Below, in pieces: positions 5-9,485 of a stretch of 64,000 nt of DNA. This stretch comes from Punctularia strigosozonata HHB-11173 SS5. Taxonomy: Eukaryota > Basidiomycota > Agaricomycetes > Corticiales > Punctulariaceae. Position 1 is the stretch's first letter; every line of letters begins with the position of its first letter. The DNA lies in the NCBI RefSeq assembly GCF_000264995.1, contig NW_006767442.1, positions 12,246-76,245 on the forward strand, in the 5' to 3' direction. The notes under the pieces were generated by a model. It did not search any database. It saw only the letters and a list, made by a program, of their open reading frames with translations, and was not told where the DNA came from. The translations under genes and the position numbers were made by a program.

Positions 5-89
5 TCACTTGTCGATACCGAAGATGTCCTTCAAGACCTGCAGCGGGTCATTTTCCAGCTCCGCGATATCACCTCCGCTCAGGGCTCGC
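5..89 (-). CDS. duplicated, possibly alternative, last exon of the small secreted protein
   Basis: This 85-base block has the same length, phase and stop as exon 2 of the gene at 155-407, shifted by exactly 150 bases. It is preceded on the minus strand by a pyrimidine run and a possible acceptor (TTTTTCGAAG). Spliced to the same exon 1 it gives the same 64-residue product with one change, Gln to Glu. The two exon copies differ at 14 bases in 13 codons, yet only one codon changes the residue. Only 61 bases (90-150) separate the copies, so there is no room for a second exon 1 between them. Confidence 0.55.
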
Positions 90-154
90 CTTCGAAAAAG
101 TTGAAATTCGATCATCAATATCAATACGCGGGCGTCGAACGATACGAGACAATC

Positions 155-407
155 TCACTTGTCGATACCGAAGATATCCTTCAGCACCTGCAGGGGATCG
201 TTCTGGAGCTCTGCGATGTCACCTCCGCTCAATGCACGCCTATGTGAGTTACGAGTTCAGCGTGCCTGATACGAGCGAATGTGTATGACGGACTTACGGG
301 GCGGCGATCAGCGATTCCTTGGGGAGACGGCTGGGCCCAACTGAAGGGCGAGCGGTGACCAACCCCGAGAGGACCACAGCAAAAGAGAGGGTAGCGAAGA
401 AGCGCAT
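155..407 (-). CDS. small secreted protein, 64 aa, two exons
   Basis: The start codon lies at 405-407. Exon 1 is 298-407, the intron is 240-297 (GTAAGT...ATAG) and exon 2 is 155-239, giving 64 codons plus stop in frame. The N-terminus (MRFFATLSFAVVLSGLVTA) is a clear signal peptide with a likely cleavage near residue 19. The mature part is about 45 residues, has no cysteine, and ends in a short acidic/amphipathic segment (ELQNDPLQVLKDIFGIDK). I do not recognise the family. A second copy of exon 2 lies just downstream at 5-89 and may serve as an alternative last exon. The product could be a secreted peptide or a processed precursor; this is inference. Confidence comes from the signal peptide, the clean splice junction and the conserved duplicate exon. 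Confidence 0.7.
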
Positions 408-2615: not shown

Positions 2616-5600
2616 ATGGAGCCTGTCGTCTCCCCGGAAGTCACTGCCGAGCTCACGCAGATTCTCTCCAATCTTGTTCTCGGAGACAACGAAATCCGGC
2701 AAAAGTAGGTGTTTAGCATGCGCTTGCGTGCCATCCGTTGACCAATAGCGCAGTGCAGAGAATGCCGTTAACGAACGCCTTGCTCAGACGCCAGAGCTCT
2801 ATCTTCTGGCTCTGACACAGTTTGCAATATCAGCCGACACCGAAGTGGTAGGCGTTTGGCCATAACACCCTACTCACGCTGAACATATGTTACCCAGATG
2901 CGTTCGTTCTCGTTAGTCCTGCTCCGACGGCTTCTATTCCGTTCATCGCAAGCAACCCCGAAAGCATCGGGTACCATCTCCACTCCATTGTCCGATCTAT
3001 CGCTAGCCTCCACCAGCCAATCTACGCTTTATGACCACCTGAGCGTCAATGCTCACAACGCGCTGGAACGCTTACTCCTTCATTCACTGGCGCGTGAGCC
3101 CGCATTGTCAGTTCGAAGAAAGACCGCGGACACCGTTTGCGAGCTGGCGAACGAGGGTATGGCCCGGGGTAGGCCCTGGCACACTCTGCAAGCGCAGGTG
3201 TTCTCCATGGCTCAAGCCTCAGGTTCTGATGCGGAACGCGATGGACGCGAAGTGGCATTTCGGGTTTTCGCTGGAAGCGTGGGCTTGATCGGCGATCTGC
3301 AGGTCGAAACGGTTGTCGGCGTCTTGACGCGCGGTTTGCAAGACTCGGAAAGCCTCGAGGTGGCGTTCTATATTGTGACTCCGTTGAATGTATTGACACT
3401 GTTCCAGGTTCGCCATGCAGCGCTGAGGGCATCCGTCTCATACCTGTCGTCCATCCCGCCTTCAGACCGTACACAGCTGGCGCAGTGCCTCGGCCTCCTC
3501 CACCCGATGCTCGAGATTCTTCCAAGCTTGCCACATTCACAGCTACCGAAGTTCCTTGCCACCCTCACACCGCTCACGTCAGTACACCCCGTCGTATTCC
3601 AGGAACACATGCCAGCTTTACTCTCCTTTTTCTCTGCGCTTGTCGTTCCCATGGCGGATGCCGGCCCGACTCCGACCGTTGCTAGGCCTTTTCCAAGTAA
3701 AAACGGCAACGGAAGTCCAGGACAAGATAGAGCGTTCTCCTTCGACTTCGTTACGACACCCGGAAAGGGGAAGGAGAAGGCTCCGGAAGACGAGGAAAAG
3801 GAAGAGCGCGACGAGGTTCGCAAGGCGGCGCTAGAGTTCATGGTCAGCCTTAGCGAGGCCAAACCAGCCATGGTGAAGAGGGTGAGCGGCAATGGTTGGG
3901 TAGTGGCGATCGTTCGAGGTTGCTTGGAGGGGATGGGCGAACTGCCGGAAGATGATGATATGCTGCAGGCTTGGCTGGATGCAGATGTAGGTGGCCGCTC
4001 CTGCTTATAGTATTCGCGTTTACATGCTTTACACCATAGCCTGCGGAGGATCCTACGGATGATGTATACCCGCATGTATACGAGCAAGCATTGGACCGCC
4101 TTGCTTGCGCGCTTGGGGGCAAGTCGGTGCTGCCCCCCTCGTTCCAGTACATTCCAGCGATGATGAATTCGCATGACTGGCGGCTAAGACACGCTGGGCT
4201 AATGGCTATAGCAGCTCTGGCAGAAGGCACGAGCAAGGTCCGTGAATATTCGTCTGACATCATGCACCAGTGTTCTGACGAGACTCAAGATCATGGTGAA
4301 CGAAGTTGGTAAGGTCGTCGCGTAAGTACCGACAGTGCAATCTCTATACCGTTGCTGATCAGAGGTCAGCCTGGTTACGCCAATGTTCGGAGACGATCAT
4401 CCCCGCGTGCGGTATGCCGCTTGCCAATGCGTGTTCGTCGTTTTCCAAGACACTTTATGGGCCAAATACAAACGACTGACACATGCTATGGGATGCAGCG
4501 GCCAACTGTGCACCGATTTAGAAGAGATCATTCAGGATAAATATCATGAGCAACTCTTCGGGGTACTTATTCCAACTCTCGAGGCACCTGAGTCACGGTC
4601 ATCTCGGTTCCCTTGATGCCATGCCAGTCATTCTCATGTCTGCTTGCGAACAGGGTTCACGCTCATGCAGCAGCGGCTCTCATCAACTTCTGCGAAGGTG
4701 TCGAGCACGATACCCTCGTGCCCTACCTGGATCCCATTGTCGAACGGTTGCTGAAGCTTCTGCACTCCGGGAATGCACAGACGCATGCGAAGCGCTACGT
4801 GCAGGAACAAACAATCACTACATTGGCTATGGTTGCAGATGCCAGCGAGGCTACGTTTGCCAAGGTTTGCGCCTAGCCCAACTTGCCGGTACACTGAGAG
4901 ATGCTGATCACCTCATGTAGCATTATCCGGCTATTATGCCTCTACTGTTGGATGCGCTAAGGAATGCGAACGGTCCCGAGTACAGAAAACTCAGATCTAA
5001 AGCCATGGAATGCGCGGGTCTGATCGGTATGGCGCCCGCTCTCCCGGACCCTCCGTTATTTGACGTGTTCGTCTAGCGATCGCTGTAGGACGGGACGTGT
5101 TCCGCCCTGACGCAAATGCTTTCATCGAGCTCCTTATGCGGATACAAAGTACGGCCCTTGCGAGAGCTTCGTGTGCACGGCTCTCATTCAGTCACTATCG
5201 CAGATAGCCCCGTCGACCCTGGCGATACGATGTCCACCCACTACCTAATTGCCACCTGGGCGAAGGTCTGCCAAGCCATGGGCCCCGAGTTCGAACCGTA
5301 TCTCCCCGTTGTCATGCCCCCGCTGCTTCAGGCCGCAAGTGCGAAAGCCGATGTGTCTATCTATGGTATATCTTGATATATAGTCGCGACTGTTCGCTTG
5401 CTCATAGAACCTAACGTAACAGATGAAGATGAGGGTGTTGAACAGAAGGAGGGCTGGGAGACTATCATGATGGATGGGCAACAGGTTGGGATCAAGACAT
5501 CTGCTATAGAGGAGAAATGCCAAGCCTTCGAAACTCTGGTGATCTACTGTTCCACGTTGGGCCCCCGCTTCGCGCCATACCTGTCCCAGAGCCTCGAACT

Positions 5601-6171
5601 GGTCCTTCCGTCCTTGCGGTTTTTCTTCCATGATGGTGTCCGGGAAGCGTGCGCGATGTGGGTCTACATCGTTCACTATCGAGATTCACAACCTCACGTC
5701 CGTTTCAGGCTTATTCCTATGCTCATGTCCTGCGGAAAGAGCAGTGGTACTCTGACGCAACAGATGGTTGCCGCCACGTTCACACAGCTGGTCAATTGCA
5801 TAAGTGTGGAACCTGACTCTTCTTTCCTCGCATCCCTCTACAAGGCCTTCGCCGACTCCCTCCGCGTGATAGGCGGTCCCGCCGCTCTTCCTCATGAATT
5901 CCATGCGGGCATTGTCGAGGCTACTAAACGTCAATTACAAAGCCTTGCTGACAGACGCAAAGCACGGTCTCAACGATCGCCGGCGGAAATTGAAGACGAG
6001 AAAGAGGACTTTATGCTCCTTGAGGAGATGGAAGAGTTCGCACTTGAAGATATGACAAAGCTGTTGAAATACTTCGATCCAAATCACCCGCTACTAGTTG
6101 CAGTGGCAAGCGTACGAGATTTAGGTTTGGGTCTGGGACAGTGGGACGAGGATGGGCAAGCTGACGACTAA
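2616..6171 (+). CDS. PSE1: importin beta-3 / karyopherin Kap121 (Pse1/RanBP5 family), 954 aa
   Basis: Fourteen exons join in frame: 2616-2704, 2754-2847, 2898-3359, 3408-3986, 4040-4237, 4290-4321, 4370-4432, 4499-4597, 4654-4864, 4921-5026, 5077-5148, 5204-5365, 5423-5657 and 5709-6171. Introns are 48-66 bases. The protein is a HEAT-repeat solenoid. Family-typical blocks include VRHAALRASVSYL, EDPTDDVYPHVYEQALDRLA, HDWRLRHAGLMAIAALAEGT, GDDHPRVRYAACQCVGQLC and STHYLIATWAKVCQAMGPEF. Kap121 proteins carry ribosomal and other cargoes through nuclear pores and release them on binding Ran-GTP. The family is usually near 1,090 residues; this model is shorter and ends in an acidic tail (QWDEDGQADD). 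The upstream ATG at 2602 is out of frame with the homologous N-terminus, so 2616 is preferred. The gene symbol reflects family, not proven orthology. Confidence 0.88.
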
Positions 6172-8148: not shown

Positions 8149-9485
8149 CTACTCGTAGACGGACAATCGGGCGAAATCCCAGTATGCGTCCACGAAGGCG
8201 GCAGGGTTCCGGTTAACGTAGTCTATGGAAGGGTATGATGAGCGGGATCCGATCTGGTAACTTCTGTAATATCTTACCTGTGCAGCTGGCACCACAACCA
8301 TTCGAGGTGAATACGGCGCCGGCCCAATCGCCACCTTCGGAGAGACGTTTGATCTGACGCAAGGACGAAAATTCATCGTTTGAAGCTCACAGAGGGTAAG
8401 ATTTATGATGATATTATTCTCTCCGAATTTAGCCTCCAGATCACAGGTAGAAGTCGATGGGAAGCTCGCGTATGGTGTACCCTTCAATCGCATGATGAGC
8501 GGCGCAATGGACATAAGACGGGCGTGTAGCTCACCCAAAATGTAGTATCTATGATGGGGCTACCGGAGTAAACGTCGAGCGGGACGAACTTGCTGTTCCT
8601 TGGCCAGAACCATACTTTAATAAACTTGTTCGTGCGCTCCATAGCATACCTGTATAGATGATTCTGAGTTCCGGGATCGCGAATAATCATCATAGTAGTT
8701 TACATACCATCCACCGCCGGCGGCGTTGAATGCGGGGCCATACGAGTTAGTGGCAGGGGCTTGTACCCCGCAGCCAGCGTTGTAGTTGAAATCCACGTCA
8801 CAGTTTGTGGAGACTGTCGTCCTGGTAGGACAGTTAGCGTGCCATGCGAGAGGGAAGTAGTATCAATACCCGGTCTGAGAACGTGTTTCGGGCATTGTGC
8901 AATTGGAGCTGGTGTGCAACGTGCTCGCGTTCGGCTCCACGTCGTTGACTCCCTCGACGATGTCGATCTCCCCGGAGGCGGGCCAGTCACTCTCCAAGGT
9001 TTCCCATGCCGCAGGCCATGTGGCGCAGCCCTGCGGCATATGACGGATGTCCATCCTGCAAAGCATTGAGTGGAATGTACAGCAGAAACCGCCTTCTTGG
9101 ACGCACACAACAGCATGGGTTGTAAACACGCGTTTGCTTCTGATGCGCACGCTTTGTCTTCCTGGGTCAGAGTCGGAGAGCACAGTCGTATGGTCTGCGC
9201 GTATTACGAAGGAGTGCTGTGATGCGTAGGTAAGATTGCTCGCCAGTGCGGTCGCCTCGTCCACGTATGTCCTAGAGCCATTCGAAGCTAGTAAGTTCCA
9301 TATTCGCTGTGAATAAGCAAACAGGGAAACGCGTACACGCGGCCATGGGTGGGGTCATCGATGGCCTCATGTTCGAAATTGTCGAGGAATTGGCGCCCGA
9401 CGCTGTTTTGCGACTGCAGATAGATGGCACTCCGGGCGAGGAACGCATGCGCGAGCATTACGAGCGCGACCGTAGGACAACGCAT
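8149..9485 (-). CDS. secreted GH16 family glucanase-like enzyme, copy 1
   Basis: A multi-exon gene of about 315 residues starts at 9485 with a signal peptide (MRCPTVALVMLAHAFLARSA) and stops at 8149-8151. The GH16 catalytic motif is intact in SGEIDIVEGVND: the first Glu is the nucleophile, Asp assists and the second Glu is the acid/base. The blocks MPQGCATWPAAWE before it and FGENNIIINLTLCGDWAG near the C-terminus are typical of fungal laminarinase-like GH16 enzymes acting on beta-1,3(1,4)-glucans. The exact substrate is not set by sequence. Intron positions match those of the gene at 11181-12514, and the two proteins align along their length, so they arose by tandem duplication. A clear splice junction joins HGRV to TYVDEATAL. 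Likely extracellular, in wall remodelling or glucan breakdown. Confidence 0.85.

Follow-up and report, generated by a model that had tools for sequence, protein, structure and literature searches.

The minus strand of positions 407-1 in the window, i.e. the whole stretch of 64,000 nucleotides of Punctularia strigosozonata DNA analysed here, consists of an exon with an ATG, an intron of 58 bases and two copies of one unit, referred to as A and B. Exon 1 (407-298, minus strand; 110 bases) carries the start codon, a probable signal peptide (MRFFATLSFAVVLSGLVTA, 407-351; a hydrophobic start with Ala at -1 and Val at -3, as judged by inspection only) and a pro-region, and it ends in phase 2 (CC/GTAAGT, the slash marking the exon boundary). 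Intron 1 (297-240, minus strand; GTAAGT...TAG) belongs to the most enriched length class of 50-59 bases, and its donor holds an in-frame TAA. The preliminary description reported a secreted product of 64 residues without cysteine; translation gave the same product, which by inspection also looks secreted. A Pfam profile search with this product yielded only DUF7683 (E 0.054; 14.3 bits against a cut-off of 27), a sequence search of the PDB yielded a single match (E 1.1), and four exact peptide fragments had no match in the literature searched. Our best guess is that the peptide functions as a secreted signal or interaction peptide.

An open reading frame for an F-box-like protein (Pfam PF12937; 1311-2150, minus strand) adjoins the peptide gene, and a GGTA microsatellite (762-793) is located between the two. 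Further along, an importin-5-like gene lies in pieces on the plus strand (2898-6171), with matches to TPR_IPO5, Importin_rep_4 and Importin_rep_6 in two ORFs.

Exon A (239-159, minus strand) and exon B (89-9, minus strand) comprise 81 bases each from the acceptor to GTGAGA, are spaced 150 bases apart and encode one core peptide apiece (ALSGGDIAELQNDPLQVLKDIFGIDK in A and ALSGGDIAELENDPLQVLKDIFGIDK in B, each preceded by an Arg). When the TGA is included, the copies extend from 239 to 155 and from 89 to 5, i.e. over 85 bases. Both the coordinates and the minus-strand spacing are as previously described, except that the gap between the copies had been given as 61 bases and measures 65 bases from the stop of A to copy B (154-90). 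The claim that this gap offers no space for a second signal-peptide exon was borne out. A separate gene for B was considered and rejected; the upstream frame has an ATG, and no signal peptide was seen in it by inspection (MIEFQLFRRRALSGG).

The recount of differences between A and B over 27 codons also agreed with the earlier one: 14 bases differ in 13 codons, of which 12 are synonymous and one exchanges Gln for Glu. Third codon positions account for eleven of these differences and first positions for three, and six of the ten fourfold sites are changed. At the protein level, 26 of the 27 residues are identical, i.e. A and B are near-identical repeats as in fungal Kex2-processed repeat proteins (KEPs). 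When 14 random changes were placed on A, an average of 9.2 residues were altered at kappa 2 and of 8.8 at kappa 5; the lowest number reached in 200,000 trials for either kappa was 2, compared to the single change observed. The in-frame coding scores of A and B lie at percentiles 99.4 and 99.2 of random open 81-mers, and the other two forward frames of both copies score strongly negative; the first 81 bases of exon 1 reach only percentile 64.4. The duplication is real, and the few amino-acid changes in comparison to the simulation and the high in-frame coding scores indicate that both copies were kept as protein-coding under purifying selection, as had been proposed before.

For comparison, 264 kb were surveyed, i.e. 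the window and 200 kb of the same genome, with 3,933 bases of N. A scan of this DNA for neighbouring similar peptides revealed 58 pairs, among which the A/B pair ranked third by score. Among the best 40 of the 58 pairs, those outside the window with a DNA identity of 0.80-0.88 carry at least three amino-acid changes each; the same 40 include other frames of the A/B duplication with lower scores. Searches of the readable parts of this genome for further copies of the unit, at the DNA and the protein level, found A, B and exon 1 and nothing else.

At their 3' ends both units read GAC AAG TGA GAT T, i.e. AA/GTGAGATT. The preliminary description took this for the same stop in both copies. The TGA is indeed in frame in both of them (157-155 in A, minus strand), but AAG TGA G is also AA/GTGAGA, a possible phase-2 splice donor (158-153 in A), which was not weighed at that time. 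Any GTRAG donor at the end of a phase-2 exon places an in-frame TAA or TGA immediately behind the exon. Exon 1 ends in GCC CC/G TAA GTC, and a protein match over exon 1 in the own genome crossed one TAA. An in-frame stop is thus present in the donor of exon 1 as well, so that the TGA behind A and B cannot be taken as proof of last exons. The TGA of A would act as a stop only if the following intron is kept. After B, GTGAGATT occurs again (8-1, minus strand), identical to the putative donor of A, and represents a true stop or else another donor, for an intron that would extend beyond the window.

Removal of positions 158-90 (proposed intron 2, minus strand, 69 bases; GTGAGATT...TTTTTCGAAG) joins A to B in frame and gives ...DIFGIDKRALSGGDIAEL...; the joined protein is MRFFATLSFAVVLSGLVTARPSVGPSRLPKESLIAAP-RALSGGDIAELQNDPLQVLKDIFGIDKRALSGGDIAELENDPLQVLKDIFGIDK. 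This frame symmetry follows from the in-frame G-TGA and is therefore not an independent support. If spliced, the joint consists of Lys (AA from exon A, 160-159, and G, the first base of B) and Arg (CGA, 88-86) exactly between the cores (...FGIDKRALSGG...), and positions 89-86 are thus a predicted Kex2 site. In 27 uncurated ORFs of at least 350 codons, 0.31% of all residue pairs are Lys-Arg and 1.77% are one of the four dibasic pairs, a rate that is descriptive and leaves the joint a post hoc observation, since the joint was spotted before the rate was computed.

The length of the proposed intron is in accordance with this splicing. Strong donors (GTRNGY) were paired with acceptors consisting of a branch site plus YAG, and relative to a baseline of 38.8 pairs per ten bases an excess of 18 pairs was found at 40-49, of 66 at 50-59 and of 33 at 60-69 bases; none of the other bins from 30 to 259 bases exceeded the baseline by more than 6.2. 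Intron 2 is located at the edge of the enriched class of 40-69 bases, and a length of 208 bases, which is needed to join exon 1 directly to B, is outside of it. The intron sizes, together with the gene content, were the grounds on which the analysis regarded the DNA as fungal. The nine usable gaps between S10-peptidase exons measured about 83, 58, 53, 55, 62, 53, 50, 59 and 77 bases; they were obtained from 21 of 47 rows chosen as seeming neighbour exons, which formed 14 pairs, and five pairs on contig C1 that mixed two genes were dropped. Furthermore, positions 158-90 have a GC content of 0.42 and a T content of 0.36, in comparison to 0.556 and 0.20 in exon A, 0.483 and 0.24 in intron 1 and a GC content of 0.568 in exon B, and the coding score per codon is 0.036 in this stretch and 0.248 in exon A. 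Intron 1 and intron 2 are no more similar to each other than shuffled sequences (score -0.5 vs -1.7, sd 2.7).

Several observations speak against splicing of A to B. As a donor, GTGAGA showed no enrichment in the 264 kb, as only 3 of 94 occurrences were followed by a branch site and an acceptor at 46-75 bases (3.9 expected); other donors were followed by both in 24 of 161 (GTGAGT), 24 of 177 (GTGAGC) and 13 of 99 cases (GTAAGT, as in exon 1). The acceptor of intron 2, AAG, is less used, with an excess of 20 (62 observed, 41.7 in the control) compared to 86 for CAG and 46 for TAG; for GAG acceptors, which were expected to be rare, the excess is 27, so that these counts are noisy. A CTRAY branch motif is absent from intron 2, and the nearest sequences are two TTGAT, located 25 and 31 bases from its 3' end. 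In addition, the standing in a small PWM is low: the donors of A and of exon 1 both lie at percentile 7.1 of introns (93.9 and 95.8 of all GT, respectively), and both acceptors score below all 14 introns (percentile 71.2 of all AG for A and 61.8 for B). This PWM, built from strict candidates, rests on 14 introns, and other candidate sets were noisy; the enrichment counts, although noisy as well, were given more weight. As the donor of A is weak in the PWM, it may be inefficient, which would suit partial retention of intron 2.

Taken together, A and B are probably, though by no means certainly, consecutive units of a Kex2-type repeat precursor, of which the window holds the 5' part of the gene. 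Exon 1 would supply the signal peptide and a short pro-region, followed by the tandemly duplicated exons A and B, each with 81 bases, phase 2 at both ends and one core of 25 residues. Splicing of A to B would remove the 69-base intron and thereby create the Lys-Arg between the cores. Kex2 would then cut after Lys-Arg and perhaps also after the Pro-Arg preceding the first core, and the basic residues would be removed by a carboxypeptidase of the Kex1 type, so that two near-identical acidic peptides differing only in Gln/Glu are released. The TGA taken for a common stop would be situated within the donor of A, and if intron 2 is kept, translation would stop at ...FGID-Lys-stop, after one complete core. 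The expected core, ALSGGDIAELQNDPLQVLKDIFGID together with its Glu form, is free of Lys and Arg.

Two repeats seem few for a KEP, which is an impression and counts against the precursor reading. The presence of the processing enzymes was counted in its favour: the genome harbours two kexin-type loci (L028 and L029) with P-domain and S8 protease matches, and 47 S10-carboxypeptidase matches, counted by exon. With regard to the Pro-Arg, peptides obtained from Coprinopsis KEPs expressed in Pichia apparently resulted from cutting after a single Arg, according to the results given in PMC9769878, and PMC2515848 mentions that sites with a different residue at P2 are processed too. On account of these reports, the Pro-Arg before the first core is regarded as a possible site.

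It is conceivable, but clearly less probable than a precursor as such, that the locus represents a peptide array controlled by splicing, in which each core resides on a phase-2 exon with a stop within its donor and which maybe continues past the window. Retention of an intron would then let the precursor end after a whole core, and its removal would add an extra core and a Lys-Arg; the splicing efficiency at weak donors would set the number of peptides per precursor.

The precursor organisation proposed here can be compared to several known systems. The precursors of dikaritin RiPPs (ustiloxin type) likewise contain repeated cores parted by Kex2 sites. A tyrosine in the core matters for dikaritins, and unlike in these the core found here has none. 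No UstYa (DUF3328) match was obtained in the readable DNA of the contig of the window (C10), and all eight matches are on the contigs C4, C14, C19 and C22; a dikaritin cluster is thus not indicated. We know of no precursors of the Ustilago maydis Rep1 type with one exon per repeat. Rep1 is similar insofar as it is a basidiomycete precursor cut into longer peptides, which have 37 residues in that case, as described in PMC6339444. KEPs, as characterized in PMC6339444, PMC7329392 and PMC9769878, share with this locus the near-identical repeats, probably also a secreted precursor and, if the intron is spliced, a dibasic site between the repeats, and the core of 25 residues fits the class of 25-50 residues counted for KEPs in PMC6339444. 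Unlike in KEPs, each repeat has its own small exon here, the dibasic site would be made at the splice joint, and two repeats are seen. In the main text of these three articles, the strings 'exon' and 'splic' do not occur, and 'intron' occurs once, with reference to an intron-less cDNA. Among the titles and the beginnings of abstracts searched, no description of an exon-per-repeat layout was found, which does not show that it is unpublished.

According to the preliminary description, the simplest explanation was one of mutually exclusive alternative last exons, A and B, each with a TGA of its own, resulting in two proteins of 64 residues that differ only in Gln/Glu. Exon 1 can be joined to A and to B in frame, purifying selection acts on both copies, either of them has a valid stop in AAG TGA, and the likely donor would be the GTAAGT of exon 1, an enriched hexamer (13/99). 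Animal mutually exclusive tandem exons are also two homologous neighbouring exons of equal length, as A and B are. In contrast to such exons, A and B can be joined without loss of the frame, and a plausible cleavage site is gained thereby; hence nothing demands that they be kept apart. This explanation is unlikely and was not supported as the simplest one: removal of a 69-base in-frame intron would yield Lys-Arg, whereas the alternative requires an intron of 208 bases (297-90), a length without a clear excess (2.2 over 38.8 at 200-209 bases), and skipping of the 81-base exon A. The gain would be a single Gln/Glu difference, and the Lys-Arg at the joint and the GATT that extends beyond the stop would be left unaccounted for. 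Data on alternative splicing in fungi point in both directions. Alternative first or last exons ranked second only to intron retention in a study of fungal pathogens, and 171 genes of Schizophyllum commune showed mutually exclusive exon events, primarily in UTRs, according to the figures in PMC6176087 and PMC5034255, respectively. The same sources give intron retention as the commonest type; exon skipping made up 1% of the coding-region events in S. commune (PMC5034255) and less than 1% of the events in the fungal pathogens, in which mutually exclusive exons accounted for less than 0.2% (PMC6176087).

The last 25 readable bases are the same in both copies (ATCTTCGGTATCGACAAGTGAGATT, positions 1-25 and 151-175), and the identity runs four bases (GATT) past the stop to the edge of the window, which was not included in the preliminary description. 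Thirteen of the first 21 codons differ, yet the 25 bases at the 3' end are identical, which might be due to conversion or to a constraint at the nucleotide level. Given 13 changed codons out of 27, the chance that the last six sense codons remain unchanged is 0.010 (calculated post hoc). A plain stop would give the four bases behind it no reason to match, for which a chance of approximately 0.4^4 = 0.026 can be assumed. A donor clearly requires only one of these four bases (G at +5), and conversion could also explain the identity; the 25-base run therefore stays partly unexplained. RNA structure was considered as a cause and rejected, as three stretches, comprising the 3' ends and intron 2, fold like shuffled sequences (z 1.74, -0.18 and 0.22).

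The resemblance of the 25 identical bases to a conversion tract, with the post hoc chance of 0.010 for the unchanged codons, would suit another explanation, namely that A alone is used, with B as a relic of recent origin in the 3' UTR, whose conservation would be only apparent and due to gene conversion or late loss of function. The less used AAG type of the B acceptor agrees with this as well. On the other hand, 12 of the 13 changed codons are synonymous, which means that for most of the divergence both copies were constrained as coding sequence, or that this divergence preceded a recent loss, and such a relic is quite improbable. Readthrough of the TGA is hardly credible: the frame is open from A across positions 154-90 into B, and this spacer ends with Arg-Arg-Arg before ALSGG, but it scores low as coding sequence, with 0.036 per codon (percentile 68 among random open stretches) in comparison to 0.248 for A and 0.24 for B, it is richer in AT, and the Arg run is partly trivial, because AG/G at an acceptor gives the codon AGG (Arg) when the genomic sequence is translated through, as is also the case before A.

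If splicing takes place as proposed, the locus would be a repeat-peptide precursor built by whole-exon duplication, with protease sites at the splice joints. Since the first in-frame stop lies within a donor, annotation could overlook such genes or present them wrongly as short proteins with one core. If true, a direct link would furthermore exist between intron retention and the number of peptides that a precursor yields. At present, the locus is a single unproven case.

Elsewhere in the DNA scanned, at about 8349-8572 of the stretch L011, a pair of neighbouring peptides was detected in different frames and 155 bases apart (SCKPGVPCPRLCHIITVTPTSTT and SCPPGVPCPRVCEIVTITPTPTS). This pair may be another instance of a coding segment that was duplicated, with an intron between the copies.
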